From Biscogniauxia marginata (lineage: Eukaryota > Ascomycota > Sordariomycetes > Xylariales > Xylariaceae): a DNA stretch of 64,000 bases. The first letter of the stretch is position 1; each line of letters starts with the position of its first letter. Positions 20,319-39,447 of this stretch are shown here, piece after piece. The DNA lies in NCBI GenBank assembly GCA_022695795.1, contig MU404199.1:16252-80251 (forward strand), in the 5' to 3' direction. A program made the translations under genes and the position numbers. Under the pieces are notes generated by a model. It saw nothing but the letters and a program-made list of their open reading frames with translations. It made no database searches and was not told the origin of the DNA.

Positions 20319-21952
20319 TCAACCGACTATCGCCTCACATTCACTTAGCCTTCGGCTCGCTCGGGCTTTGTGGTCGTTGGTTCCGTTGGCTCCGTTTGCG
20401 CGGTGGCCATTAACCGCACCGCGATTGATCCGGCCCGGGGCGAAGGCCTCGGCGCCGATGTACGTCGTGATGTCGAGCTCGCCGTCCTTGGTGAAGAGAC
20501 AGCTGATAAACGCCTGCAGGCCCGTGCCGTGCTCGAGTTTCCGGTGCGACGCCAGGGCCTCGAGCATGGACAGGTAGCTCCCGGTGTAGGCGCCCCGGCC
20601 GTGCGACTCCATCCACCCCATGATGCCCCTGGCTATGCTCCGGTCGTCGCTCCCGTAGCGCCGTATCGTCGTGTAGAACTTGATATCGGGCAGCACGGCC
20701 CCCGGGGCGATGTCGAAGTAGTACTGGTACCCGGACAGCCAGAACTGGATCTCCTTGAAGTTGTCCTTCGACACCGGGTCGTATCCGGGGGGGCACGGGA
20801 TTTCCTGATCCGCGGGGTAGTCCTCGTCCAGGCCCGTGGCGGCGGCGATCAGGGACCGCAGGTCCTCCAGGTTCTTCTCCCGGACGGCGATGCGGCCCCC
20901 GAGGGTCATGATCTCGCGCACGGAGTCGAAGCTGGTGCGCGGGGTCTGGAAGTAAAACTTGAGCCGGGCTTTGGACGGCTTGACGTTGTCCACGGCCACC
21001 ATGCCATAGCAGAGTCAGTTTTATGTTCCTCGTAGCTTTAGTCGTGAACTAGGTGAACGTGTTTTTGTCCCTAATCAACTCAAAAAGGAGAGCGGGATGG
21101 GCGAAATGGAGAGGAAAGATCACTTACATGGGCTCTAGAAATTCGCCTTCGGAGTGACTGTTGAGGAACTCATGGAGAGTGGCCCGGGCCTGGTTGTTAG
21201 GGTCCAGCTTGGCCAGAGATTCTTCCCACTGGGCCATGGGAATCCGGCCCTCGGTTTGGCCTAATCGGCGCGGAAGGAAGTATGTCTTTATATTCACACC
21301 CTGCGGCACAAGCTCCGCAGCCGTCGCTGTGGTTGTAGTAAAGTGCGCGCCGGCAGCTGCTTCTTGTGTGTACTTGTGTCGGTCGTGGTCGTACAGCGTA
21401 GCGATGAAGTGGTTAGCCCAGGTGAGATCTACCGAGGGCACGGCTTGTTCAAGACGATGCAACATCTCGATTGAGGCTTGCTGGTTCAATGGATCTATGG
21501 CTGTATCGGTGAATTGGTTGATAGGCTCAATCGTGTAGCGTACAGCAGGATCGCTCTTAGCTGTGTTTCATTTCCACGAATATTCTATTGGCGAGCCCTC
21601 GACGCCCAGAAACGACTGCCACTTGAGGCTGCCGTCGTAACCTGGTTTCGGGCCCATATAAGGCACCTTTTTGCTACATTAGGCATGATGATACACGCCA
21701 GAGGCTCAAAGGTTGTATGGAACTGCTTACTATCTAATGATAGTGAAACAACAACGACTCATACTGTCGTTTAGGTGTATAGCCAGCGGCATCTAGCATT
21801 TTGGCCAGGTGCGGGCCCGTTAGATGCCACCACTAATCTTTATCTGGGCTCCGCGATGGAAGGCACCGCGATAGAGCAGCATATACCTTGTTTTCTGAGA
21901 CTTCAGCTATGATGCTTCTTGGTCAATTGGATTCTTTGTCGTCGTCCATCAT
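20319..21952 (-). pseudogene. Decayed aromatic (indole-type) prenyltransferase, DMATS family
   Basis: Four exons can be traced: 21952-21887, 21832-21731, 21666-21128 and about 21003-20319, about 463 codons in all, a normal DMATS length. Landmarks in order are WWHLTGPHLAKMLDAAGY, GSPIEYSW, the DPLNQ block, LTWANHFIATLY, NIKTYFLPRR, ARLKFYFQTPRTSF, DIKFYTTIRRYGSDD and LDITTYIGAEAF. The family transfers a dimethylallyl group to indole or other aromatic substrates. It is broken: in-frame stops lie at 21925-21923 (TGA), 21736-21734 (TAG) and 21570-21568 (TGA, at the conserved Trp after GSPIEYSWK). The donor at 21127 (GTAAGT) has no AG acceptor before the next exon. The last exon is GC-rich and open; the damage is in the 5' two thirds. 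A TAG just before the WW block is best read as the acceptor of intron 1. Confidence 0.85.
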
Positions 21953-22238
21953 AGATATCACAATGCTAGCCGTCACTGGGTCAATATATATAATATCGAC
22001 ATGTCGCCTTGAATATCACCTTTCTACCAGACAAATGACGGCATGGGCTCTGAAGAAAGGGTAAACCCGGCGTTTCGATGGCTTGTCGGGCACTCGGTAA
22101 TTGACTCTTCGTCATTGCAAAGGGGGTGCTCCAATATTGACACCAGTATCCATTCACTTGATCGCTTAGGTACATGTCGAGTCTTAGGCGGAATCATTAC
22201 TATCCGCCCCCTTATCCCTGACAAAGACATGATCCGAC
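21953..22238. promoter_or_regulatory. Former divergent promoter between prenyltransferase and dehydrogenase relics
   Basis: These 286 bp separate two head-to-head broken genes. Shared divergent promoters of this size are usual in fungal metabolic clusters. I see no specific factor-binding site that I can defend. Confidence 0.35.
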
Positions 22239-22461
22239 ATGACAACCACTGAGGCGTTATTGCTGATTACCGGTGCCATCTAGGGTATCAATTTCGAGAC
22301 GGCAAAAATTGCTCGACGTAGGAAAACACCACATTATACTAGGCTCCTACTTCGTGGCCGGCGCCGCTGCTACGGCCGAAGAACCGGGATTGAGCGACGT
22401 GACACCGGTGGCTAATGATACCACTACCAACGCTGCCATTGGGTATTTATGCATCGTATAG
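22239..22461 (+). pseudogene. Short-chain dehydrogenase remnant (Rossmann N-terminus only)
   Basis: An ATG at 22239 opens MTTTEALLLITGA, a typical SDR first strand leading into the glycine-rich cofactor loop. The loop is interrupted by a TAG at 22281-22283 and then reads GINFETAK. One base later in frame, the homology continues as KHHIILGS (second strand) and LSDVTPVAND (third-strand region), ending at a TAG near 22461. The catalytic YxxxK half is not recognisable downstream. It therefore has at least one nonsense change, one frameshift and loss of the C-terminal half. The gene is divergent from the prenyltransferase relic. Confidence 0.7.
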
Positions 22462-24069
22462 AGAAAAGTGCCAATAATTTGTTCGGCCTGATTACCGATG
22501 GTTCATTTTGGTGCTCCAGCGATCATTCAAGACTGGCCAGAGTTCCCGATTGGGTTCGCCGATCGTGTTCCCCGACATTTCAGAATACTTCGGTAACCAT
22601 AGAATGCCCCTGATCTCTTCACATAATCCTCACAAGCCTTACGTACAATTCGTGTGAGCTAGTTCGAGCTGTGACTATCTCTCACAGTCGCAAGTAATGT
22701 ATTTACTCCGTCTTTATTTCTTATGTTACTTTTTTCTTCTGAATTTAAAAGTAAGCAGTTTATCATCTTGAAGCCCTCAGGCAGTTCGTGATTCTTGTAA
22801 ATCGCGGTAGATGTTATGGGCGATCTACCTAGCTAAGGTATATGGCATTTTTGAGGATCCTATAATCTTTAATATCGAGGCCTAGGCCTAGGTCTCGCAA
22901 TTAATGTTACCAAGTTACATCTACAAATCAAGGTTGACAAATACTGAAATGCTTGAATCGTGTAACGACGGCTCAGGATGACGCCTCAAAATACCTCTCG
23001 CAGTATTCGGAGAGGTGTTATAGTTCAGATTCTCCATCCATCACTTCGCCATGTGCCCTCTCTGCTGGTGACATTGGACGTCCACTCGGCAGATTTTACT
23101 CCCTATAGATGTTAGAACATTTCGCCTGCCGTCAAACAGGCTAGAACAAGGAACGGACAATGTACCGGCACCAATGAACACAGCGAAGTCGCGGATCAGA
23201 AGTGCCACATTATGATCGTCTTTTTATTCCGGTCATTATGCAAATCCAGATTGGGAAAGTTAGGCCAGCTGATATGACGCGACTGAAGATTTTTAAGACA
23301 TGTCAGTTTTTGTCAGGGCCGAGGAGCACGTCAGAAATCGCTAATCTACCAAGTCGGAGAAAGGTTGCGCCCAAGACACCTACCCCAGAGATCGATCGAC
23401 TCGGATCTACAACCCCCTTCCCTGTTCATCTATAATACCCTAGTGCTGACGCATACTTCCCCGACAGGGTTCATGCACAATTAATATGCTGAAGGTGCAG
23501 AAGATCGATCGACAACCGCTGGTTTATCTCCGTATACAAATGCATCGACGCGGCTTCACGAGACGGCCCGACATTCGGGTGTGCGATAGATTTCACAATA
23601 CACTTATCAGGTTGGTCTTGGGCTTGATGGAGTGAATTGTAGGATCGGGATGGCGTTTTTGATGGCGTTTCTTTTTTAATTAATGGTGTGTTATATGACT
23701 CCTCTTTCTGAATTGAGATTGGCCTCTTTATAGGGGACTTGATAGTCTTATAGCTGTTTCTACAGTATTCTCCCTGAGGTGCCATAGGTTGGTCGTTCAT
23801 TGAGCCATGAATATCATCATTGTTATGTCAAAGCCTAGGGTAGCTCATGATTCACTCATGAGAATGAAAACAAACCTCCTGTATTTATACATACCAGATC
23901 CCTCTGAATTTCATATCTTGGTCTCGAAGCAAGTTAGACGCCGTGAAAGGCAATTTCGTACATAATACCAGCAATATCTTTCTCTCTGCTGAGGTTTGAA
24001 GTATGAACGCGTCTTACATTTGCATTATGAAGGAGACTCTCTTGACAAAAATATTGAATATCAATTTCC
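22462..24069. other. Intergenic, 1.6 kb, possible unrecognised debris
   Basis: No intact gene. A minus-strand frame at 23800-23471 (109 codons, MNDQPMAPQGEYCRNSYK...) is Lys/Ser/Pro-rich with no signal peptide or domain, and I do not count it as a gene. The rest may be decayed cluster DNA, since it lies between broken genes. Confidence 0.4.
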
Positions 24070-24557
24070 TTAGAAGGACTCAATACTTGTACCGATGGGA
24101 CCGCTGGTCATTTGCAGCAGCCACTCTCCGATAGCGATATCCATGACGCTGACGCCTACACTTTTGTACACGACGAACTTAGATTGAACCCATTCTCTAA
24201 CTCGGCTATAGTTTCCACACTTAGTGTATGATGAAGCTTACCGACCTCATGCATCTGATCTGAACCGATCCCGGCCTTTACCAATCCTCCGGCTTCTTGC
24301 AAACAACCACTAGCCGAGTCCACAACGACCCTGCCGTTCCAGACCTGGTCCGAGAAAACACCTTGAGGGTCTATGATCGTCTTTAAGAGTTCCGGGTCGA
24401 TTTCCGTCATGTCTAGACGGTAGGATCCGATGGCAGCGATGTATCGGGTCTTGCACCTAGCCTCTTCCGATGTCAGGTACCGGGCAGGGAAGAGGGCCTG
24501 CGTACTGGGAGTCGTGCAGAAGATGACGTCGGCCGCAGCACCTTTTATTCCCACCAT
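24070..24557 (-). pseudogene. 5'-truncated ornithine cyclodeaminase / mu-crystallin family gene
   Basis: Two exons give only the C-terminal half of the family. The first (from 24557) reads AAADVIFCTTPSTQALFPARYL, then RYIAAIGSYRLDMTEIDPELL, then GRVVVDSASGCLQEAGGL, all typical of the NAD(P)-binding domain. A short intron follows (donor GTAAGC after HEV, acceptor GAG near 24193). Exon 2 reads WVQSKFVVYKSVGVSVMDIA, the conserved family end, and stops at 24070. The N-terminal 150 or so residues are missing. The codon before the ATG is a stop, and the next gene's stop codon lies only 13 bp upstream. Members act as ornithine cyclodeaminases, ketimine reductases or imine-forming enzymes in natural-product pathways. 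Here it is probably non-functional or a domain remnant. Confidence 0.72.
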
Positions 24558-24570
24558 CTAGCGTGGTTCA

Positions 24571-25882
24571 TTACGATATGATGTTTTCGTCCGCGAACAG
24601 TGATGCCAGTATGCTATTCTGTAGCCCGCTCTTGTCTTTTGCCCAACCTTTGAGGATCAAGTCTCTCCCCGTAGTCAATGCAGCCAAGATTTTAGGTAAG
24701 GGATACGGCAACGGGGCATTCCGATCGCGTCGATAGTACCAGCATATCAGGTGCACTCCGGCGTGTATGGCGGCGCCAAAAGCCAGCTCCTCGCTGAGCT
24801 GGCCGTAGCCTTGGATGAGCCCTTCCATCGCAGGGAGACTCGCCGCAACGCCCTTGAAATGATAACGCTCGTAGAGATCGGCCAGGATGCCACCTACGTC
24901 TACGGCGCGGTGGCCGAACTGGATATTCTCCCAGTCGATGATAAAGAGCTTGTTGGAATCCTGCGAGTCTCTCCATGTGCCATTCGGGAGCAGGACACTA
25001 TTTTTATCGAATGTTAGTTAGTACCGAGCAAGTGATATTTTCAGTATTGATTTCTTTTCTTTTTTCTTTTGCTTTGTTATTTTTTTTGGTCGACGCTCTG
25101 GAGATGAAAGACTAAAGACAGGAGGGTCTGACTCACTTGCCACCCCAGAAATCTCCATGGATCAGACCACGGGTTGCATTACCTTCAACCGGTAATCGCT
25201 CGAACTCGTGTTTCATCGCCGCTTTCACTGCCTGCAGAGTGTCCCTATAGCCTTGAATCGTTTCAGGGTGACGTTCAAGGATCTCGATGAAGCTGTCGTA
25301 GGTGATGAGGCACTTGAGCTGGCGCATGCCCAGATTGGGTCCGACTTCGGCCAAGAGCGCGTTCTGTGCGGGCTCTGATGACCAGGTGTGAAAAGAACGG
25401 AGCCACGAACCGAGGGCGCGACCGATCGAGGTCGGGCTGGACCTGGGCAAGGAGAGATTGACGGAAGGTGACTCCAAGACAGTGGTCAGATCAGTCGTGT
25501 CGGGGAAGTACTCCAGGACCTGGATGTGCATCTCCTGGTCGAAGAAGTAGATGCGGGGGACCTTAACTAGAGCATCCCCGCTCGGGGTCGAGATGGTTCT
25601 GGGGAAGCCATCCAGAGCGCTGAGCATGGAGTTCTCAAAAGCGCAGCGCGTGACGTCGAGGGGAAAGTCGCGGTTGATGGCGACATAGTCGGTGGAGACC
25701 TTCACGATGACAGTGTCGGCGGCGCTAGAGGGAAGAGGCTGGGTTAGGTCGCCGCGGTAGAGGAAGTTGGCGGTGCCGCCGCTCAACTTGACCAGCGCCG
25801 AGCAGGCATACGGTGAGCCTGCCAATTGATGCAGCACCTGCTGGACGAGGGCCTGTTCCTCGGCTTGTGTCAGAGGCGCCAT
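24571..25882 (-). CDS. Aminoglycoside phosphotransferase-like kinase (APH/choline-kinase fold)
   Basis: Two exons (25882-25137 and 24997-24571) give 390 residues with no internal stop. The chosen start is the ATG at 25882 (MAPLTQAEEQALVQQVLHQL); the frame stays open up to 26080, but the extra residues look like leader and would leave almost no promoter. Visible kinase features are a Gly-rich segment KLSGGTANFLYRGDL, the VIVKVS lysine strand, the catalytic loop LIHGDFWGGN (the Asn is completed across the intron) and the metal-binding IIDWENIQFG. The C-terminal helical part follows. The family phosphorylates small-molecule hydroxyls; the substrate here is unknown. It is the only clearly intact enzyme in the decaying cluster and starts about 100 bp from a divergent UstYa-like gene. 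Confidence 0.85.
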
Positions 25883-25982
25883 TTTCTGTGGTGTTCGTAG
25901 GTGTCGATCTGTCGAAATAGACAACGATGGGCAAGCAGGCGTAAGACGAAATTCAAACCAATGTTGTAAGTACTGAGTACTG

Positions 25983-27170
25983 ATGGCCCCTCCTGTTAGA
26001 GGGGTCGAGAACCAGTCAGGAAGACGCAGAGGATAAGACTCTTCTGGGAACAGCGAGTGATTACCAAGCTTCTCGGCCACGAAAGAAGAGATCGGGTTTT
26101 TCTCGGTTGAACTTGACTTACTGTTTGTCTCTCAACCTTGTTCTTACAACGTTTAACCTCGCCATTTTACTCTGCTGGTCCATATTCTGGTGGAAGAGCC
26201 TGGCGCAGCACGAGTCCGGTAGTAGCGTATCATCGACATTATCTCTGCTGCCACCATGTATGCCCCCCCTTCTTCTTCTGTTCTGTCGTCGACACCCATG
26301 GGGAGAGAAGGTGGGAGCTGACCGATTTTTTTGCCTTCAGCACCGGCGATTAGTGCAATAGAGAGGGAACTTCGCCCATTTACCTTGTCGTCACCTTATA
26401 ATCAGCATCCGGGACCTAGGACAGACAAGCTATGGCACGATTTGGTCAACAGTATGTTCTCCATGGACTTGCCAACACAGACCTTGGACAACTGCTGACA
26501 CGCCCTGGACGCGTTACACAGCCGAAGCTGTGTTTCCGTTGACCGAGGAAGAGTTCCTCGAGGTCAACGACAGTCCCGAGACTGGTATCAAATTTACGCA
26601 TGATTCTCAGGGTCGATACCTGGGAACTTTGGCCTCAACCCATCAAATTCACTGCGTGGTAATAAGATTTCCTTCTAATCCTCCACCTTGTTTTTCATGC
26701 CAACACAGCGAGAACGATCAAAAGCGACTGACATATGACGGGCTGATTAGGACTCTCTGCGAAAAGGTCTCTGATTTCATTATAGGCATTACCAAGCCAT
26801 CAACGACGCCTTATTTTTGGACAATGACCCTCCCGAGGAGCATCTAAGTAAACCCCCCTCCCCCCTAACAAAAAAAAGAAACCACTGGGCCCCATGTCAG
26901 GGGCAAAGAGAGATATATGCGGCTCGGAGCGAAACGAGAATAGTTCTGCTAACGAGTTTTTCCAAACACAACTTAACAGTGCACTGTGTTGAGATGCTCC
27001 GCAACGCGGTCATGTGCTTCGGCGACGTCTCTGTCATCACCTACAACTGGAAGCAGGGCCACGAGGGGCCGAAGGCGAGCTTCAAGAGCATGCACTCTTG
27101 TCGGAAGTGGGACAAGATCGAGGAGTGGCGCTCCGCCCACGACGTCACCGGATACTCACCGCGACAGTAA
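25983..27170 (+). pseudogene. UstYa-like (DUF3328) oxidase gene, frameshifted start and one nonsense codon
   Basis: Exons traced: up to 26257, 26341-26451, 26522-26658, 26751-26847 and 26980-27170. Exon 1 encodes a basic cytosolic tail (RPRKKRSGFSRL) and one membrane segment (TTFNLAILLCWSIFWW). The family's two HxxHC copper/iron-site motifs are both present: HQIHC, with its Cys near 26655, and HLMHC, made across the last intron. Downstream come VEMLRNAVMCFGDVSVITYNW and MHSCRKWDKIEEW, the usual C-terminal end. Two defects are visible. The open frame of exon 1 contains no ATG; the only nearby ATG (25983) is in another frame, so an indel is likely. A TGA at 26772-26774 interrupts exon 4 after DSLRKGL. 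UstYa proteins oxidise and cyclise peptides in fungal RiPP and related pathways. Confidence 0.75.
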
Positions 27171-27267
27171 GATCTAGCCTGTGGGCCGAGATAGTACGTA
27201 TGTACCACACAACGCACAAAGAGTAGTTCGTGCTTCAACATAGACCACCGCTCTCCTTTCCATTCAG

Positions 27268-28591
27268 TCAGTGTCTGCAATATCGTGGTGTCGTGGAATT
27301 AGCGTCCATCTCCAAGGCGACAATTTCGTCACTCGGTATTATCATGTTCGCCTGAGATTCCTTCGTCGTTTGTATAATATTCTGAAACCAGCTAAAACGT
27401 CACGAGACCGACGTCGGCGTGGAACATGACGAACTGGCGAAGCATCTCCACGCAGTGATCTGTGACGCAGAATGGTGTTGTTTAAAAATTGAAGCAGGTA
27501 TGGAAAGCTCGCGCATAAAAAGACAGCATTGATTGAGGGCTTGTTGGTAGTACTTACCAAAATGAACTTTGAAAGTCTCGTCTTTATCCCTGAAATCTAG
27601 GTCGTGGAGCTTGTAGTAGTCATACTTGAAGTGGGACGCCTTTCGTAGTAGGTTCTAATAATTATGCCACATGGCGTGAGCCTTTCTCAAGCAAGAAGCA
27701 AAGGAAGCTTGAGCCCTTACCACACAATGCAACTAGTGATTACATAGAATGTCAGTTTCCAGAATGTCATCACTCCCTTTTCTTTCTTTCTTTCTGTTTT
27801 CTCGCGGAAATCATTTAATTACATACCTGGTGAGAGAACTCGGGCTGCAGAAAATATCCGCCTCCGGATTCCGGCGCGTTCTTGGCCGCCGTCTCAGGGC
27901 TTTTCCCGATCTTGAGAAACTCCTTGTCGGTCAAAGCGATGTCTAGTGGACGAACTTGATTTTTGTAAGAAAAAAATTTTGTCAGCCATTCCTATCATTC
28001 ATTCACTGGTGCGTTCTTGTATTATTCGCCCCTCATCTCTGCTCATCACATCGAAGATTTAAATGCTTGACTTACACATAGAAATCTCTTCCCAAGCCCG
28101 ATCGACCTCGCGCGATGGTGGTCCTCGGTAGGGAGACGGCCATCGTATAGAGCCGTTGCGCGTGCTGTCTATCAAGGGAAAGAGATTGTCAATCCAGCTC
28201 TGACGACAGCAGTTGTGTTGGGTGGAGAGAGAAAGGGGGAAATGGATTTCCTACAGTATGACGACACTTCTCGAAAACAGCGGCTTTGCAGCCCACGGTC
28301 TTGATACCATACCAACCAGATCAGTATAAATGTCAAAAAACCCGAAGAAGCCCATCCGCTATAGATCAGGTATGCACTGGCTCCACCTCTTGGCCGCGAC
28401 GTGACAGCTTTTCGCGAGCTGTCACAATGGGAGCATTCGTGAAGTTTCGCCTCATCGATGAGCTCGTCGTTGCTATATGTATGAACGAACTTGTAGTCGG
28501 TTTTGGACAGGCGGTTGTAGGTTATACGGAGGCTCGATCCCACCGTTCCGAGCATCACCTTGACACGAGAAAGACCCATGGGGATTGCCAT
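27268..28591 (-). pseudogene. Second UstYa-like (DUF3328) gene with a 12-nt micro-exon and a late frameshift
   Basis: Six exons: 28591-28268, 28199-28076, 27954-27827, 27732-27721 (12 nt), 27654-27558 and from 27459. Exon 1 encodes a cytosolic part and one membrane segment (about residues 72-96). Exon 2 holds SPYRGPPSREVDRAWEEIS, a family hallmark. Exon 3 ends in FSHQ, the micro-exon supplies LHCV, and exon 5 continues NLLRKASHFKYDYY, so the first HxxHC motif depends on the micro-exon. The second motif, HFDHC, forms across the last intron. The frame stops at 27394-27392 (TAG) after DVGLVTF. Shifting one base restores a family-like tail to a TGA near 27268, so a one-base insertion is likely. 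The exon 1 donor is weak (GTGTCG). The gene is convergent with the other UstYa-like gene. If the early stop is tolerated, the gene could still be expressed. Confidence 0.72.
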
Positions 28592-29535
28592 AACTGTGAT
28601 ATAAGAGTGGCAGTCTAAAGGGAAGAGACTCAGAGGAGAAACGAATCACAAATGTACGGTTCTAGGACGGAGGGTACTGGTGTTCCGGTCTGATTACGGC
28701 CCGCAACCTCGAAACAAAATGATGTGTAAATAGGTAGTGTGCCCTAAAACAACGAATAATGAATTAAGCTCTTTCTGTATCCATAGTTCGACACGTCTTC
28801 CAAGGATGGCTATAATCAGGGAAATAATGAGGGGCGTGGTTTTAGAAAGCTAGGGAATTAATTGGTTAGTTAGATCTCTGATATTACAATGTAGAGACAT
28901 ATCCCAGGTGAACATGCATTTAATGTGATCTAACTGTCCAAAGCACCTTGTTCGCTTATCAAATATTATTACACCAAACCTACGACTCAGGAAGGAGGTA
29001 TATAATACTAGGGAACTGGTGACATGCTAGGAGGTTTCAGATACTTAATGAGCTATATGCTTGCATTTATCAATATTTGGTCAGAGCCGTGTCCAGTATT
29101 ATAATGTGGACAATACTAAGGGCCATTTTGCCTAATTTGATTACCGGATCTCATTACTTAGGTACTTACTGATTACATGGTCATAAACTCGAATGGATCT
29201 GATTATTTTCGTTCGCTTCATCCCGGTTTGTTTGCTTACTGGGATTTGCATACTAGACTGTTCTTAGAAGAAACGGGTGAAAAAGAAAGGACGAACAAAA
29301 TGAAAAACCAAAGTCAAGGCAAAATTACAAGGGGGGCAAACCCCTAGAAAACGAGGGGGAAGCGAAGAAAAGTGGCTTTTACTCGCACGAAGAACCTCAT
29401 GGTACGTTGGAGGCACTTACCATATGTAGCAGTTATACGGTTAACTATAGCGGCGAAATGAAAAAAAACGATTTTTAGGTCTACGCCTTATATAAAATAA
29501 CTATAAACCTTATTTATTAGAATGTTAAACATAGT
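28592..29535. other. Intergenic, no gene seen; GC falls toward the RIP island
   Basis: Spacer upstream of the second UstYa-like gene, with its promoter presumably in the first few hundred bases. Composition becomes strongly AT-rich from about 29450. Confidence 0.5.
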
Positions 29536-29971
29536 AACATGTCTCATAAGCGAGTGGGCTACATAAGCGAGTAAGCCACTTAATTTCCTATATAAAATCG
29601 GCTTTTTCAAAAATTCATAACTTTACACGTAAAAATCGTAAAAGTCTCGAACCTTTTTTTTAGTTATATAATTATAAGGTTTAATTAAAAGTAAAATTAA
29701 AGAAATTAATTTTAAGAAACGTAAAAAGAAAACGTATAAAAACTAAAATTAAAATTAAACGCACGGACCTTTTTATATATTTCTTTATACATTTCACTTT
29801 TTATTTTTTCGATTTTATTTTTAATTAAACTTTGTAATTATATAATAAAAAAAAGATTCGAGATTTTTACGATTTTTATGTGTAAAGTTATAAATTTTTA
29901 AAAAAGCCGATTTTATATAAAAAATTAAGTGGCTCACTTATTTATATAACCCACTCACTTATAAGACACGT
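29536..29971. repeat. Fold-back (MITE-like) element with about 165-bp inverted arms
   Basis: The left arm (29536 to about 29705) and right arm (about 29806-29971) are near-perfect reverse complements around a spacer of about 100 bp. Outer ends read AACATGTCTCATAAGCGAG and, in reverse complement, AACGTGTCTTATAAGTGAG. Subterminal CATAAGCGAGT units occur twice in the left arm. No coding capacity remains. This fits a non-autonomous DNA transposon or fold-back element; I cannot assign the superfamily. Differences between arms are mostly C-to-T or G-to-A, as RIP would produce. Confidence 0.8.
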
Positions 29972-30252
29972 TAATTATTATAATTATAATTTAAAGTAGT
30001 TATATTATAAAAGTTTTTATTATATTAAAAAGATAAGTTATATATAATTAATATATTTTTATAAAAAAAGAATAAAATAAAACAAAGGCTTATTTTATCT
30101 TAGTTATTTTTAATAACTTAATAAATTCAATTCTTTATTTACTATATATACGAGCTCGACTTCTTTGATACGTTTCTAGGTATTAAAATAATAATAACAG
30201 GTAATATATGGTATTATTATCCAGCTCATTTAAGTATAAGGGTCTAGGGCTG

Positions 30253-30530
30253 TGTGACGAACCTCCCTGTGTGTTCTTGGTTAGCTAACTTCACAGGTAA
30301 GTACGTATTAGGTTTTCTTGATTTAAAGGTAATAATAGATCGAGGTTAGTTTAAGATATTCATAATACTTTATTCGTTAAAGAGATTTCAAGGTATTTTC
30401 ATTATAGTATTAAGGAGTGATTATAGTTTTAAATTAATAGTTAAAAAACTCGAATGAATAATTAGATATATAGGAAATCCCTTTCTTTTTATACTTATTC
30501 TTTTTAAAGAATAATGTTTAATATTCTTTT
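30253..30530 (-). repeat. Left LTR of the gypsy element (RIP-mutated; inner border uncertain)
   Basis: Starts TGTGACGAACCTCCCTGTG and follows the nested solo LTR base for base except for many C-to-T and G-to-A changes, at least as far as about 30510. Beyond that, similarity fades and I cannot fix the end. It would be the 3' LTR of the minus-strand element. Confidence 0.7.
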
Positions 30531-31980
30531 TACTTTTTTATAAGTATTTAAGACTTTTATAAATACGTCGTTATTTTATTCTTAAAAATATATATAATTT
30601 TAACTTTAAATGTTTATATATATTTAAGAGTTTTATAAATATGTTCTTAATTTCCGAAGATTATTTAAAACTAAGATAACTTAATATTTTTATTAGTTCG
30701 TAATATTATTTCCTTTTTTAAAAATCTTTATTTTTAAAGATAAAAAGTGCGTAATTTCCTTTTTAATTGGTTTTTATTTTTTTCTTATTATTAATTGTTA
30801 TTATGGTTAGTTATAAGGTTTTAAAATTAAGCGTTTAGTTTAAAACGTCATCCGAAAATTATTAAGGTTTTTTTTAGTTATTACAAGGTTTAGTTTTAAA
30901 ATTATACCTTGTTTTTATTGTTTTAATAAAAGCTTGTTTTGTAAAATGATAAAAAGTCGAAAAAGATATGATTAGTATATATCGTTAAACGTTTCTTATA
31001 ATGAAAACGGGATTTCTTTAAACTCTTTTTAGAATATTCGTCACGAAGATAACTATTTAATTAAAAAAAAAGAGAATGGCTTAGCAATAACTTTAAGAGG
31101 TTTTTATGCGTTAACGCGAGTTATTAACCTAATTAAAACGTTTAAACCGACAAAAGGAACTCTTTCGTTTTAAAGGCGTAGAAATAATATAATGAGGTTT
31201 TAAGAACTTAGACGAACTAGAAAAACAAGGGCAGTTAAAAAAAGAGGAACGACTTTAAGCTAAGTAATAATCTTTAATTAAATAAGTTAATGTTATTTAT
31301 AAGGCCTCTCTCGACTTTTTTAATTAGTTTTTACTGAACTAGGTTAACCTTTAAATAGTTTTAATTAATTTGGGTTTTGGCGGTAAAAGTTCGTAAGTTT
31401 ATTTGTTAGGTTTTTTAGGTAGTTAAGTGGTTTTTAAGTGTTTTTTAAGATATTATAACTAATTATTAATTTGTTTTAAATTTAGTATTTTTTTTATTTC
31501 GTACTTATTAGGGTTTTCTTTAAATTCTAATTAGTTTTTTAATAAGGCGTTTTTTAGTGCTAGTTTTAAAAGTAAAATATAAAATATAAAATATATTTTA
31601 AATCTTTTTTTTAAAAAAGTCTATAATTAACTTTTGAAATGACTTTTTTAATTTTATATAGTTTTAACTTTTTAAACTTAAGTTTTTTATTAAGCCGTTT
31701 TATTAATACGCTTTATCGTTAACGGAGTAAGTAAACTATATTTTCTTTTTTAAGAATTAGTCCCTTAATTTTTATTATTATAATACTTTATTATCTTGTT
31801 TTAAATGAATTGTAACTCTTTTTATAATTATAGTTGTATTATTTAGACTTTTTCGGATAATATTTCTACTTTCGAGGCTTTTATTTCGATTTTTGGTGTT
31901 TTTATAAGTTTAATTAATTATTTTTAAATTTCTGCTTTTTAATTATATATTACCTTGTGTGGAGATATCTTTATGTTCTC

Positions 31981-32145
31981 GTTAATTAAAGTGTTATACG
32001 TTATTTAGGCTATTAATAGCAATTCTATTTAGTTATTTATTTCTTAGTTAATATAGTTTCGAAGATATTATTTTATTATTTAATTTAGTTTTTTTTGTTT
32101 ATTCGTTTAATTAAGGATGATATATTATAAATAACTTTTGTTTAA
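31981..32145 (-). pseudogene. Gypsy integrase remnant
   Basis: The minus-strand frame reads TNKQKKLN, stop, IIK, stop, YLRNYIN, stop, then IELLLIA and YN. This is the conserved gypsy integrase stretch downstream of the catalytic core, with Gln and Trp positions turned into TAA. The upstream minus-strand sequence (to about 32210) also encodes KYKLPEYIV-like residues in a shifted frame. The gene is dead; the match is by eye. Confidence 0.75.
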
Positions 32146-33539
32146 TTTTTATTCGTTTTATTAAGTTAGTTTAAAACAATATATTCCGGTAATTTATATT
32201 TATTAACGTACTTTTTCAAGAAATTAAAAACTAGCTATTTTATTATACTTGACTTATTAAACGGTAAAAAATAAATATACTTTATAAGTCGGTTAATTAT
32301 TATTTATATATTGTTATAAAGTACTTTTATAATAAAATTTTTTAACTTAAGGAGTTTTATTATGAAATTCTATATAATTATATATTATGCTTTTTTAGGT
32401 ATTTAAGTTAATTATAATAATTTATATAGTTTATATCGTGATGCCTTAGCTTTATTATAAACATTATAACTTTTCATAATTCTTTTAATTATTTACCTTA
32501 TTCCTAGAAAGTCGAATTTTTTTTATAACCGTTTTAATGTCTTAAAGATTCTTTGGTAATTATGTAAAAAGTATTTATAAAATTCTTTAATAAACTTATT
32601 TTATACTTATTTTAGTATGTAGACTTTTTCTTTATACGAAAAAAGTTCGTTATTAGTTTCTTATTAAGATTATAATTGCTTTTCTTTTTAATTATAATTT
32701 TCCTTAAAACGTTATTTTTAGTTTTTTATATTAATTTATATATAAATTAATATAATTAATTCGTTATTTTATTATTTAAATATTTAAATATTTCTTTTGT
32801 TAATTTTTAATTTATAATCTCCTTTTTTACTAAAAAGATTTATTTAAATGTTTTCTTTTTTTAATGTAATAAATCTTAAAATTAAATTTAAACAAGAAAA
32901 TTATTTAACGTTTATATTTTTAATTAAGCGTTTATATTATTATAAATCATGTAAAGTTTTTATAATTTAAATAAATATCGATAGGTTTTTTGGTTTTGTT
33001 AAGTTATAATTCTTATTTTTTTAATGCTTTAATAATTATTAATAGTTTTTTGTTATAAATTTAATAATTTAATTTAGTATTATGTAGTGCCTTAGATAGG
33101 TATGTGACTAGGTACTATTTTTATTGTTTTTTAATTGCTTTAAAACTACTTTAATACCGAAATTTAAGGCGTTTATTTTTAATCGTTTCTTTTTATTTTC
33201 GTTTAGAAGTTAATATATAACTTTATTAGTTATAATTTCTTTTAATTATTAAAAAGCCTATTTAGCTTTTTATTATTATTAAAGTAATTAGTTTTATTAA
33301 TAATTTAACGATTCGCCCGAAATCTTGGATAAGTTGTTTAACGTAATTAATAAAACTAAGAAATGCGTATATGTTTATAACACTTTTAAGTTTTAGTTAA
33401 TCTTTAACTATTATTATTTTTCTTTTTTAAATTTAAATTTCTTTTAGATTTATTATAAACCTTAAATAATTTAGTTTTTTAATATATTATTTATTTTTAA
33501 TTAAATGAATAAATAGGTTTATTCTTTTTAAGGCTTTTA

Positions 33540-33680
33540 ATATTTGTTTTATATATTCTTTATACTTCTTTTCGCTTTTTAAGTAAATAAATATAAATTT
33601 ATTTAAAAACTTACGAAGGATTATTATAATTATATGTTGAAATGTAATAAGTGTGTTAATAAGCCTAAATAATATAACTT
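33540..33680 (-). pseudogene. Gypsy reverse-transcriptase remnant
   Basis: The minus strand reads FRLINTLITFQH, then ILRKFLNKFIFIYL, then KSEKKYKEYIKQI. This is the palm region of gypsy reverse transcriptase around the catalytic motif. The acidic catalytic residues expected right after IYL are absent: the reading passes straight from IYL to KSE, as if about seven codons were deleted in frame. Confidence 0.72.
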
Positions 33681-33886
33681 TATATTTATAATGTTTATAT
33701 ATCGTTTAGAAAGTGGTATATTATTCGTGTTTTTTAGTTATTTTGATTATATAATAACTATTACGGAGATTTAATGCTATGAAGATTTAAGCTTTATTAA
33801 TTTGCCTTTTTATAAGTTTTATTAGTAGTAACGAGTATTTTTTATTACTTTATTAAAGTATTAATAGTTAATTACTTGTCGCTACA

Positions 33887-34259
33887 TGTGACGAACCTCC
33901 CTGTGTATTCCTAGTCAGCTAACTTCACAAGTGAGTACGTACTGGGTTTTCTTGATTTGAAGGTAACAGTGGATCGAGATTGGTTCAGGTGATTTCCGAT
34001 GCCTTGTTCGTCAGAGAGATTTCAAGGTACTCTCACTATAGTATCAAAGAGTGACTGTAGTCTTAGATTGATAGCTAAGGAACTAGAATGAATGACTAGA
34101 CACATAGGAAATTCCAATCTACTTATACTTCATCCTTTAAGGAGTAACACCCATATTCTCTCTAATTCTCAAGAGAACAACAGAGAATTCCTTCTGGAGT
34201 CATGTGACCTCAGATCATATGACCAACTCAATTCCCTCTACCCTTGTTGGGTCGTAACA
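33887..34259. mobile_element. Solo LTR nested in the gypsy element, with target duplication CTACA
   Basis: A 373-bp sequence begins TGTGACGAACC and ends GGGTCGTAACA (TG...CA ends). It is flanked on both sides by the same 5 bp, CTACA (33882-33886 and 34260-34264). It has far more G+C than the DNA on either side and lacks most of the C-to-T changes of its relatives at 30253 and 37457. No internal region is present, so it is a solo LTR, probably left by LTR-LTR recombination of an element that landed after the host element had been mutated. Confidence 0.9.
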
Positions 34260-37200
34260 CTACACTAGATTTCCTTTTTTATTAATATATTGTTTTTTGT
34301 TTTTATCGATTTTTAGTATTATAATAACTAGGTATTTTAACGAGGATTTCGACTTTTAAATATATTCTTTATTAAGTTTTTTTTAAATTCCTTTTTATAA
34401 TGCTTTTTGTTTTTTTTTTATTTATAAGATATACTAAAAATAATTTTAATTGTTTTTTTTCTTTAAAATGGATTTAGTGATTTTATTAGTTATGTTTTAA
34501 TAATTCTTTTTTTATTTTGTCTTTAAATAATTTATAGAACCGGAAATACTTAGGTAGTACTTTTTTCGTTAGATTTTTAGGCTTAATTACTCGAATTATA
34601 TAAGTGATATGTTTCGTTTTTATATTCGTTTTTTTAGTGTCACTTATAATACTTATTTTATAACTCGTAATAATTAACTTTTTTTAATTTTAATTTTAAT
34701 AAAGTATGTTTATTTCGAAATTTATTTATAAATTACTTTTTTTAAGTTAATTCATTTTTAGGATTATATTGTGATTTAATATGTGTATAATATTAAAAAT
34801 GACTTACTTAAAATGTTTTTAAATAGTTATTAAGAGAGGAATTATCTCTTTTAGCACCTTATTATTTTTATAATTTATATAAACAAAGTTTATATACTTA
34901 TAATATATTGTTTTTTAAGTTACTTTAATTAAAATATTATTTTTATTTATTTTTAAGTTTATAAGGGCTTTATATTTCTTTTTATTATACTTAACTTTAA
35001 TTATAATAATATTATTAAGTTTTAATTAAACTTCGTATAAGGATTTACTATTTATAGCTTCTCGTTGTTTTATTAGCGAAAGCCTTTATCGTTTTTTAAT
35101 TTTTCACGTTTTTTCTTTTTTAGGTTTTTTTAGGTCGTTACGGCCTTAATATTTTTCTATTTTTAGGTTTTTATAAAAGCGTGTTTTTAATAATTATTAT
35201 TTTAATAGTTTTTTTAATTACTTTTTAAATAATAAGGAGTAAAAAGTCTATTTTTTATATAAAACCTTATACATTAAAATTTTAATTATTTTTCAAGGGC
35301 TTTTTTATAGCTTAAATCTATTTTTTTTTAATTCAAAGCTTTTTAAGGTTTTAAATTATTTTTAAATAAAGGGCATAATTCTCGGATTTACTTATTAGGA
35401 GTAACTTTATATCTCTTTATAGGTTTATATATTTTTTTATTTATTATTTTATTAAGTGTTTCTTTATAAAACTAAATAAATTAATGTCATATTTAGCTCG
35501 TTTTTCGAGTTAGCGTGGAAAATGTAGTTTTTTTTATAATTCCTATAATTCTTTTTTAATTTCGTTTTTTTTAAACCCGTTTTAAGTAAATCGTGTATAT
35601 TGTATAGTATTAAGGTATAATATATATAATTCTTAATAATTACTTTGTTGTTTTTTTCGGAATTTAAGTGAAAATAATATGATTTAAAATAATGTAGCTA
35701 TTATAAGACGTTATTATAAATATTTTTTTTGTGTTATTACTTTCCGGTTTTTAAGGATAATAACCGGCTTTATCTTTAAAGTTTTTATATATTTAATAAG
35801 CGTCGTTAATATAAAAGCTTTAATGTAGCGATATATATTCTTTTTATAATTTTGTTATTTTATTTTTATTAAAGTGAAATGTTTCGTTTTTTAGTTATTT
35901 TACTATTTTTAGCTTTAATTTAGGTTTTTCACTTAATAACTTATTAAGTTAACTAGTATTATTTAGGTTTTAATAAATATTATAATTATTATTTATATAA
36001 AACTTTTAATGTAAGTTATTATGTTTATTTTTTCCTTAATATATTTCGTATTTGTTATTATTATAATTTAATTTAACTTTTAAGTCGTATCTTAATTTAT
36101 AGATATTATACTTATATAGTAATTCGCTTTTATTATATTTTTGTTTAGCTTGTTTTGGCGTGAAATACCCTAGGTATAAGTAATTATGCTTTAAATAGTT
36201 TTAAAAGTTGATTTAATAATATTTATAACTCTCGTGAATTATAACGAGTAAGTAATAATACTTTAAATGATATTTATAAGCTTTTTTTTTTATAATTTTA
36301 ACGGATATTATAGCTTTTTTTTATTTTAATAGTAGTAATAATAAATACTTGGTTTACCTCTTTATTATCTTCGAAATGAATTCTTATTTTAAAGGTTTTT
36401 TTCTCGGGTTAAGAAATCCTTTTTATTTTTGGTTTTTATTTCTTGGGATTTTAGTATTTATTTTTATAATGTTTTTTTTATAGTTAAAATATTTAATGGT
36501 CGATTTGTTTTGTTTTTTTTGCTTCTTTTAAGTAGTATTGATTTTAATAGGGTTTAATTTAGTTTTAGTGCTTTTTCTTGTTTTAATACTATTTTTGTGA
36601 TTTTCTTTTTTCTGTTAATTGCCGTTTTTTCGTTATACCGTTTTTTTCTTTTTAAGGTATTGTTTAAAGTTTTTGTTATTAATAATAATTACTATTATAA
36701 CGTATTTATTAAACTTTTTTAAGTTCTTTTTTTATATAAATTTATTTTATATAACTTATTTTTTATATGGTTTTTTAATTTTTAATAAAATAAGTAATAT
36801 AGGTTTTTAATAAGTAATTGTGATTAACTTATAAGTTTTTTAAACTCTTTATAATCTTTAAAGACCTTTTTTATGTCTTTTTAGGCGTTTTATTTATTAT
36901 TTAAGTAATTTTTTAATATCGATTAAAACCAAGTTAAAATAGTTTTGACGAGGAGTTAAAATACCGTAAAAACCTTTTATTTTTTAGTGGTAATTATTTC
37001 GTAATAAAACTATAAATAAATTCTAGTTTAAATTAAAAATCTTTTTAAATTACTTAACTTATTATATTTACTAGGTATAATTAATTTAAAACTTTTTATA
37101 TCGAGGGTCGTTATATTATTTTCGTCTTTTAAGTTATTAAAGTCATTATCGTTTAAGAATAACTCCGGTTATTTATTTTTAGGAGATAAAGGTTATTTTG

Positions 37201-37456
37201 TTTGTTTATTTTCTTTTTTAAGTGCTTTTTTTTAGTTATAACTATAATTAACTTTTATATTAATTTTTTTAAACCCTTTTATTATATTGTAAAAGAATTT
37301 AAAGTTTTTGTTTAATAGTTTATTAATTATTTTTTTTTTACTTATTTCTTTTTTTGTTACTCTTTAGTCTTAAGGAGTATATTTATCTTGAAACAATTTA
37401 ATTAAGAGTCCTTTTTCTTAAACTAATATTAAGTATTAATTAAAAAGTTATCAAAA

Positions 37457-37927
37457 TGTAACGAACTTTCTTATATATTCTTAGTTAATTAACTTTATAA
37501 ATAAGTACGTATTAAGTTTTCTTAATTTAAAAGTAATAATGAATTAAGATTAATTTAAGAGATTTATTATGTCTTGTTTATTAAAAAGATTTCAAGGTAC
37601 TTTTATTATAATATTAAAGAGTAACTATAGTTTTAAATTAATAATTAAGGAACTAGAATAAATAACTAAATACATGAGAAATCCCGTTCTTTTTATATTT
37701 ATTCATTTTGTCTTTTATTCCTTATAATTGGTATGTTGGATATCTTTAGATCACCTTATTTATAGTGATTTATCTTACATTGCTAAATGGATACGTTTAG
37801 ATCACTCTATTTATTCTGATTTATGTCACGTGATGTTGTATCTAAATCCTCTATCCTATTAACATCCTTATGGTTCGTGTCTTAACACCCTTATAGGAAA
37901 CCCCTTTAACAGGTTGGGTTCGTAACA
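37457..37927 (-). repeat. Right LTR of the gypsy element (5' LTR in element sense)
   Basis: Begins TGTAACGAAC and ends GGTTCGTAACA, about 471 bp, roughly 100 bp longer than the nested solo LTR. The extra length includes an imperfect tandem duplication of a block containing TTTAGATCAC (near 37747 and 37797). A further copy of the end motif (CCCCTTTAACA ... GGTTCGTAATA) recurs just outside, at about 38008-38033. The half nearest the internal region is heavily RIP-mutated; the outer half is less so. Confidence 0.7.
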
Positions 37928-39447
37928 GTAACGTTATATTGCCTTTTTAACTCGAGTTATTCGTTCTTTGCATTCTTGGTCCGTGCTTTATACCCTTGTT
38001 AAAGACCCCTTTAACACTGTTGGTTCGTAATAGGTAGTTTAGTTGTCTAGAGGGGTGAGAGAATGCCTTGAACTGTACCAATCAAACTATGCATGTGATA
38101 CATAGTCCAACACCATAAACATGATACTTCATGTATATATACGAATAGTTAATGTTATTCATATTGTTGTAAGTTTAAGAAGGCCTGTCCAAGCACGCAT
38201 GAAAATGCTAATATATCCTCTTTTCAACTGCCCCCTTTCCCACATATTCACGTTGGATCCAAATAAGCCGTATATTAGCCTCTATTCTCGTCCAGGTAAT
38301 TGCCTACTAGATTAAAGAAGTTCCTTAGAACATCTCTGTCACAATGTCTGCTATGGTAGGGATATATATCAACGACGTTTTTGTGTGAAGAGTTGTAACT
38401 AATTAGAGTTACTTCTGAATCGGACTTTTTACATACTGTGAAACATTATCTTAATTAACAACTATCTTTGCATTTGTAGCTCTCCTGACCGCTCTCCAGC
38501 CTCCAATGTCTCGATATAAATGAGGTTCCTAGCAACCCCATTGTCGACAGCGAGACGAAAGAACGCCAGTTCAAGCCTCTATCTACTCACCTCCCAACCC
38601 AAAACACAAAGGGAATCGTTTAGAGTACAGATATCACTAATCGGAAACGCAACACAGGAACAGAAAGGTGGGAAATTTTATAACCGGAGCCATTGACGAT
38701 ATGACCTGGAAGAAAGCCCTTATCTCAAGTTTAACATATGGTGATGCCGGGACGAAACCCGAAGAGGTCGTGAAATCTTTAGAGTCTTGTGCTAGACCTC
38801 GTCACGATATAAGGCTATGTCACCCTACTTGACGAGGCGACGTCTTCTTCAAGTATAGATTCCGGAGCCTTAACCGGCTTCGAACGGAACACTCTCATAT
38901 TTGTGTTTTCTAGGGTCCTGGGAATAGCACGGGTAGATTGTAGTTAAATTCTATAACTCACACTACAGAGGTAAGGAGACAGAGGCTGGCCTAGAAGAGA
39001 CTGATGAAAAAGATTAAATACAGTACGCGAAAAATTGACATAGAATTCGGGTATATTATTGTTGCTACCTACCTTCGTAGCTATATATATGGAGAAGCAA
39101 CTTGGTGCGCAGGACCATCACTCTAAGCCGTGATGGCAACACCTGAATGTTCTATCCTGCCTCTCGCCTCTCAGAAGATTCCCGTTCCCGGAGTAGGCAG
39201 TAAAAAGGGCTTCTTAGTAGTAGTAGACCACATTGGTGTGGTGGAAAGATGACAGCCATGGCAGACCTGGCTAGAAATTACCCGAACCATTATCGGAAAC
39301 CATTAGGTTAGCACTGGCTTAATTTGCGGTGTAGGACTCAAGCCACCACCCATAAAAGGTAGAACGTGAACCAATACCAAAGCCAAATGTATGCGAACCC
39401 AGGGCACCACGCCATATCACGTTGTTTTGCTCAATAGCTAGCTCAGT
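37928..39447. other. Right edge of the RIP island and intergenic spacer
   Basis: AT-rich to about 38035, with a second copy of the LTR end motif; normal composition after that. No gene is supported. The short frame at 38121-38315 has no features. Confidence 0.5.

Follow-up and report, generated by a model that had tools for sequence, protein, structure and literature searches.

Probable remnant of an accessory biosynthetic locus in Biscogniauxia marginata, with an intact kinase gene beside relics of UstYa-type oxidases and a DMATS prenyltransferase

The window analyzed here is a 64,000-nucleotide stretch comprising bases 16252-80251 of contig C145 (80,251 bases) of Biscogniauxia marginata (Xylariales), for which a genome of 45.3 Mb in 229 contigs was used. 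Frame reading, Pfam and tblastn reveal six accessory genes or gene pieces within 8.3 kb of the window, Table 1: a DMATS-type aromatic prenyltransferase, a short-chain dehydrogenase/reductase (SDR)-like fragment, an ornithine cyclodeaminase (OCD)/mu-crystallin-like gene, a small-molecule kinase and two UstYa-like (DUF3328) genes, referred to below as UstYa-1 and UstYa-2. At the level of sequence the kinase is the only gene that is unbroken today, and the others carry stops or truncations that are free of any bias from repeat-induced point mutation (RIP). We consider it somewhat probable that these are what is left of an accessory biosynthetic locus whose conserved kernel is the small-molecule kinase beside a UstYa-type oxidase, with the DMATS gene a neighbor that relatives keep elsewhere. 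In such a locus one or two membrane-bound UstYa-type oxidases would act on a scaffold of peptide or amino-acid origin, oxidizing or cross-linking it, the OCD/mu-crystallin-like enzyme would interconvert imine and amine and the kinase, which resembles PsiK and methylthioribose (MTR) kinases, would phosphorylate a hydroxyl group. In the decaying locus a probably conserved pair (kinase and UstYa) can thus be told apart from what is likely a local neighbor (DMATS).

Exon 1 of the kinase (25136-25882, minus strand) is 100% identical to the NCBI protein P0001 of B. marginata, exon 2 is identical to it by eye and the frame is free of stops until its end. P0001 passes the aminoglycoside phosphotransferase (APH) family PF01636 with 37.4 bits, relative to a cut-off of 23.2, so that the claim of an earlier, sequence-only reading of this DNA, that an APH-like kinase survives intact, is borne out by a stop-free gene of two exons encoding 390 residues. 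The catalytic-motif residues H242, D244, N249 and D270-W271 do not vary when P0001 is aligned with 32 relatives. Searching with a 33-sequence profile recovers PsiK with an E value of 1.5e-25 and methylthioribose kinase at 2e-4. The top fold matches of an AlphaFold2 model (pLDDT 90.3) are to PsiK as well (TMq 0.73 and 0.71), followed by methylthioribose kinases. The protein is a small-molecule kinase.

The last-exon piece of UstYa-1 lies well above the PF11807 cut-off (68.6 versus 25 bits) and its middle piece falls below it (21.7 bits). The HQIHC motif is present, as is the HC part of the second HXXHC motif, which is split by a presumed intron. Piecewise matches are obtained to relatives from Metarhizium acridum, Talaromyces atroroseus and Eutypa lata; the C-terminus is shorter than in three relatives and there is one in-frame stop, in keeping with the prior claim that the gene is damaged. 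For UstYa-2 the Pfam match is a short one, 26.1 bits over 28 profile positions (166-193), and the tblastn pieces are weak; HCVEMLR is present and the first motif is split by a presumed intron. Read by eye across presumed introns, its exons are open with canonical-looking borders and the frame stops after HCVEMLR...VTF. The early end following the second HC motif makes damage a reasonable reading of UstYa-2, likely rather than proven. The deposited models P0122 (206 residues) and P0130 (386 residues) are shortened proteins. Passages of PMC12186524 describe UstY enzymes as using a dicopper site for oxidative transformations, and the double HXXHC motif is given as the suspected active site in section 19 of PMC12048977; by analogy, dicopper chemistry may apply to UstYa-1 also. 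In the genome as a whole PF11807 gives 34 exon-level UstYa matches distributed over many contigs, with several neighboring matches on C4, C8 and C131.

Linkage in other fungi was assessed by comparing annotated proteins related to the kinase, UstYa-1 and DMATS, using the best 120 rows and the longest contig listed per row, with an identical contig size taken to indicate a common contig. A contig size was available for 118 of 120 listed kinase rows (of 213 hits), 118 of 120 listed DMATS rows (of 131 hits) and 7 of 7 UstYa-1 hits (14 candidates). Fragmentation of the assemblies limits the comparison, as may the presence, in one case, of two assemblies of a single species. Apart from the contig of the window itself, the kinase and UstYa-1 share one contig among the listed rows, the 2,337,527-base contig of M. 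acridum (Hypocreales), where the kinase relative J3458_019990 (63% identity) and the UstYa-1 relative J3458_019987 (50%) are three locus tags apart. The link is thus seen in one of the three named species that have a UstYa-1 match, and suggests that kinase and UstYa-1 form a conserved pair, for which the M. acridum locus provides a concrete anchor in finding the unassigned pathway.

Table 1. Coordinates of the locus features, the adjoining AT-rich island and a repeat gene elsewhere in the same genome
Feature	Position	Strand	Basis
Pseudogene of a DMATS-type aromatic prenyltransferase, in three exon pieces	20319..21910	-	Pfam PF11991, genome search, tblastn, stops
SDR-like fragment (call of the sequence-only reading), stop inside	22239..22460	+	frame reading; Pfam unconfirmed
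OCD/mu-crystallin-like gene, C-terminal part	24109..24557	-	Pfam below cut-off, tblastn, profile match; last stretch in another frame, by eye
Small-molecule kinase gene of the APH/EcKL superfamily, intact, 390 residues from two exons	24571..25882	-	P0001, Pfam, structure model, no stops
UstYa-1 (DUF3328) relic with one in-frame stop, shortened at the C-terminus; motifs HQIHC and HCVEMLR	25927..27170	+	Pfam, tblastn, motifs, stops
UstYa-2 (DUF3328) relic, ends directly after second HC motif	27392..28591	-	short profile match, tblastn, motifs, stops
AT-rich island, RIP-like dinucleotide bias	29500..38200	none	GC 0.20, composite index 0.83
C21 repeat/UstYa-like gene	L048:4557-5442 = G000:C21:307457-308342		short first exon and open frame with repeats and tail

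The DMATS gene behaves differently from this pair. Both of its open pieces exceed the PF11991 cut-off (124 and 96.2 bits versus 25) and three in-frame stops within exons interrupt the reading frame, establishing, as had been claimed, a damaged DMATS gene; from the upstream stop to where the first conserved block begins there is no ATG. By tblastn the pieces are each 62-67% identical to P0132 (Cytospora leucostoma) and P0134 (Whalleya microplaca). Among the listed rows the window's contig is the sole one shared by kinase and DMATS or by UstYa-1 and DMATS. Besides B. marginata, 13 species appear in the kinase list as well as in the DMATS list, and in every one of them the two are on different contigs. 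Six of these (Nemania abortiva, Astrocystis sublimbata, Xylaria arbuscula, Xylariaceae FL1019 and FL1272, Apiospora saccharicola) have a kinase with 62-67% identity to that of the window; the kinase of the remaining seven (five Aspergillus, Penicillium vulpinum, Whalleya microplaca), at 40-46%, is possibly a paralogue. Our interpretation is that DMATS may be a local neighbor only, kept elsewhere by relatives.

The sequence-only reading had instead suggested that all six genes, now in decay, belonged to one pathway, with a prenylated cyclic peptide or an alkaloid as its product; such a pathway would be special to this lineage. The crowding of six accessory genes or pieces into 8.3 kb speaks for this view, which we regard as unlikely; because DMATS and the kinase are unlinked among the listed rows, with differing contigs in 13 of 13 species, the six-gene route to a prenylated cyclic peptide is left unsupported. 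Orthologues at unrelated loci in relatives had been named as the mark of an accidental grouping; within the lists this is what is found for DMATS, and the M. acridum pairing of kinase and UstYa-1 opposes it. Neither a precursor nor a non-ribosomal peptide synthetase (NRPS) was found in the window searches made, which also argues against a single pathway and agrees with the earlier statement to that effect. A secreted precursor whose repeats are flanked by dibasic sites, as in dikaritin-type clusters, did not emerge in the window from scanning its open frames of at least 60 residues for identical stretches of five residues, from tandem repeats or from comparison with the repeat gene described below; a precursor that is diverged or has a single core would escape these searches. 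Pfam scans of 10 of the 61 window open reading frames (ORFs) of at least 120 residues, some others having been scanned separately, gave no megasynthase or precursor, nor did those of 6 of the 32 fragments listed between 21.9 and 24.16 kb plus one added piece. A precursor peptide or megasynthase hidden in the window was thus considered and, within the scope of these scans, not found.

The same genome does provide one point in favor of the single-pathway view. On contig C21 a DMATS, a UstYa, a cytochrome P450, an O-methyltransferase and a repeat-containing gene lie within about 12 kb, the DMATS being 52-54% identical to the window pieces. The O-methyltransferase consists of two adjoining frames, a further methyltransferase-like ORF was recognized by eye, and the UstYa match contains two stops in the genome scan that may reflect an intron, so that intactness of the locus is not claimed. 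The repeat gene has a short first exon, signal-peptide-like by eye, and then an open frame in which TNWYxDSAxG occurs three times, with a dibasic pair behind every copy (RK, RR, KR), and which includes a tail with a double HXXHC motif (HQYHC and HAIHC). Self-similarity of the repeat part is above that of 2000 of 2000 shuffles. Similarity of the tail to UstYa is weak (Pfam E 0.0046, 17.3 bits relative to a cut-off of 25; 64% probability over 45 columns in a profile comparison), and a possible reading of the gene is a fusion of precursor and cyclase for a ribosomally synthesized and post-translationally modified peptide (RiPP). No second match to this ORF was found in the genome at an E value of 0.001 or better. 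With DMATS and UstYa beside a likely repeat precursor, the C21 locus keeps the idea of a prenylated peptide alive without supporting it for the window. At a further DMATS locus (L049, G000:C17:1-9900) the matched pieces are free of stops and are accompanied by exons of a P450, by an SDR and by the dimerization domain of an O-methyltransferase. A second close copy of the window locus was sought in the genome and none was found, the nearest counterparts being three DMATS paralogues at 46-54%, a kinase on C47 at 36-42% and the other OCD gene at 35%.

The remaining two pieces are fragmentary. The OCD relic is without about 200 N-terminal residues, its match beginning at residue 210 of 344, and its open frame starts 13 bases beyond the kinase stop codon. 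With 12.7 bits it is below the PF02423 cut-off of 24; over 101 columns it shares 34.7% identity with the other OCD gene of the genome, on C143 (E 2e-14), and it matches the solved thiomorpholine-carboxylate dehydrogenase (PDB 8h8p) at 1.4e-9, so that these homologies and the absent N-terminal part substantiate a damaged OCD-like gene. The C143 gene (L055, G000:C143:77481-78263), with an open frame of 371 codons, is the only OCD/mu-crystallin match of the genome over the cut-off. As to the SDR, a fragment with one stop is visible, and no Pfam match, to PF00106 or any other family, was obtained for the pieces tried, leaving its identity unconfirmed. The statement that six accessory genes lie together therefore stands for DMATS, kinase, UstYa-1 and OCD, relies on short matches for UstYa-2 and is without Pfam support for the SDR; similarly, that five are damaged around an intact kinase holds for DMATS, UstYa-1 and OCD, is reasonable though unproven for UstYa-2 and amounts to one observed stop for the SDR.

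Such debris could also be an accidental gathering of unrelated accessory genes and pieces beside a repeat-rich island, with the proximity in M. acridum due to chance. The OCD remnant, a C-terminal part 13 bases from the kinase end, is what an accidental gathering might leave, DMATS is unlinked elsewhere and many genera are listed with the kinase but with no UstYa-1 match found. We nevertheless think this explanation quite improbable, as the two best relatives are three tags apart, in another order, and coincidence is unlikely on a rough estimate, rather than a computed one, of about 6 neighbors in some ten thousand genes.

The cause and age of the decay can be gauged from composition and from conserved sites. 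The adjoining AT-rich island has a composite RIP index of 0.83 and a GC content of 0.20, as expected from the initial description of a RIP island next to the locus. Values for the genes are -0.21 (DMATS), -0.33 (SDR), 0.01 (OCD), -0.62 (kinase), -0.30 (UstYa-1) and -0.51 (UstYa-2), compared with -0.77 to -0.09 for three flanking genes used as controls. Leakage of RIP from the island as the cause of decay was rejected because the relics show no RIP bias. Deviations were counted as differences at sites invariant in relatives, using 22 relatives each for kinase and DMATS, picked from the 120 listed, and 3 for UstYa-1. The kinase deviates at 1 of 62 sites in its first piece and 2 of 48 in its C-terminal piece, DMATS at 4 of 51 and 1 of 31 and UstYa-1 at 1 of 26 (first piece) and 3 of 43 (last exon). 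The relatives' own deviations number 0-5 for each of the two DMATS pieces and likewise for the first piece of the kinase, 0-3 for the second kinase piece, 0-5 for the first UstYa-1 piece and 4, 2 and 1 for the last exon. Because the deviations lie within the ranges of the relatives, decay is mild in the remaining sequence; the UstYa-1 pieces and one DMATS piece deviate no more than intact relatives do and, within these small samples, the loss of part of the genes looks fairly recent. That the locus is still in use, with stops bypassed at the RNA level by editing (stop-codon editing occurs in Sordariomycetes) or read-through, or with shortened proteins that work, would fit the near-normal conservation of the remaining UstYa-1 codons and one DMATS piece and the shortened products of models P0122 and P0130, but is very improbable in light of the three stops of DMATS, its lack of an ATG before the first conserved block, the missing C-terminal parts of UstYa-1 and UstYa-2 and the roughly 200 residues lost from the OCD N-terminus.

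Several observations weigh against our preferred reading of a decayed locus with a kinase-UstYa kernel. The evidence for the link comes from a single species and from the numbering of locus tags. Neither Talaromyces atroroseus nor Eutypa lata, each with a UstYa-1 match, has a kinase among the 120 listed, and the closest listed owners of the kinase, Hypoxylon sp. NC1633 (88%) and Nemania sp. FL0916 (77%), are absent from both the UstYa-1 and DMATS lists, and therefore the kinase may be able to stand without either. The DMATS value of 4 in 51, equaled in 1 of 22 relatives, sits close to the upper end of their range and may indicate relaxed constraint, and the 2 deviations of the C-terminal kinase piece are also high within 0-3 (3 of 22 relatives have as many). 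A bolder version of the same reading, which we consider rather unlikely, is an undescribed module conserved between Xylariales and Hypocreales, in which a PsiK/MTR-kinase-like kinase and a UstYa-type oxidase would form the core of a route to a peptide or amino-acid product that is phosphorylated and modified by oxidation, the window holding a dying copy.

Outside the locus, 9 of 10 large flanking ORFs scanned with Pfam belong to ordinary families, including PAP2, ThiF/UBA E1, queuosine salvage, cyclophilin, Sen54 and a second SDR at 15.6-16.0 kb, consistent with the housekeeping surroundings described previously, and an Rfam scan of the window gave one tRNA. In open-licence literature the full combination with UstYa, dimethylallyltransferase, ornithine cyclodeaminase and phosphotransferase was not found, publication elsewhere being possible, nor was a pairing of UstYa with cyclodeaminase; a combination one member short of the full set gave papers with unrelated titles; for UstYa with aminoglycoside phosphotransferase in a biosynthetic gene cluster the relevant passage of the sole match places the two on different scaffolds.

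Among known systems, PsiK, a 4-hydroxytryptamine kinase, is the best solved relative of the window kinase by profile and by fold, but with only 16-17% identity in the structural alignment, and psilocybin-type neighbors were unrecognized at the window locus. The OCD/mu-crystallin family, represented by PDB 8h8p and the C143 paralogue, is matched by the C-terminal part in the window, whereas the N-terminal part is absent and the Pfam score is below cut-off. DMATS shares its enzyme family with GliD1 (PDB 9iia), matched at an E value of 1.9e-59, and with the prenyltransferase GME11375 of Pestalotiopsis microspora, to which it is 55% identical; unlike these the window copy is broken, and neither a polyketide synthase (PKS) nor another core gene was recognized beside it. 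GME11375 probably belongs to a polyketide cluster, a further point against the single-pathway view. The P. microspora cluster is described with PKS8 in passages of PMC9695833 where GME11375 is unnamed. In common with dikaritin-type fungal RiPP clusters (ustiloxin, phomopsin, asperipin-2a) the window has UstYa/DUF3328 proteins with HXXHC-type motifs; unlike them, no Kex2-repeat precursor was found in the window, and where passages of PMC6514808 and PMC7329392 describe such clusters, kinase, OCD and DMATS were not seen. PMC7329392, in passages where the words fused and fusion are absent, describes DUF3328 genes as neighbors of repeat-precursor genes, and fused burpitide cyclases of a plant pathway are described in parts of PMC12186524. 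If the possible fusion is real, the C21 gene, in which repeat cores and a UstYa-like tail are joined, would be a fungal counterpart of these plant burpitide cyclases.

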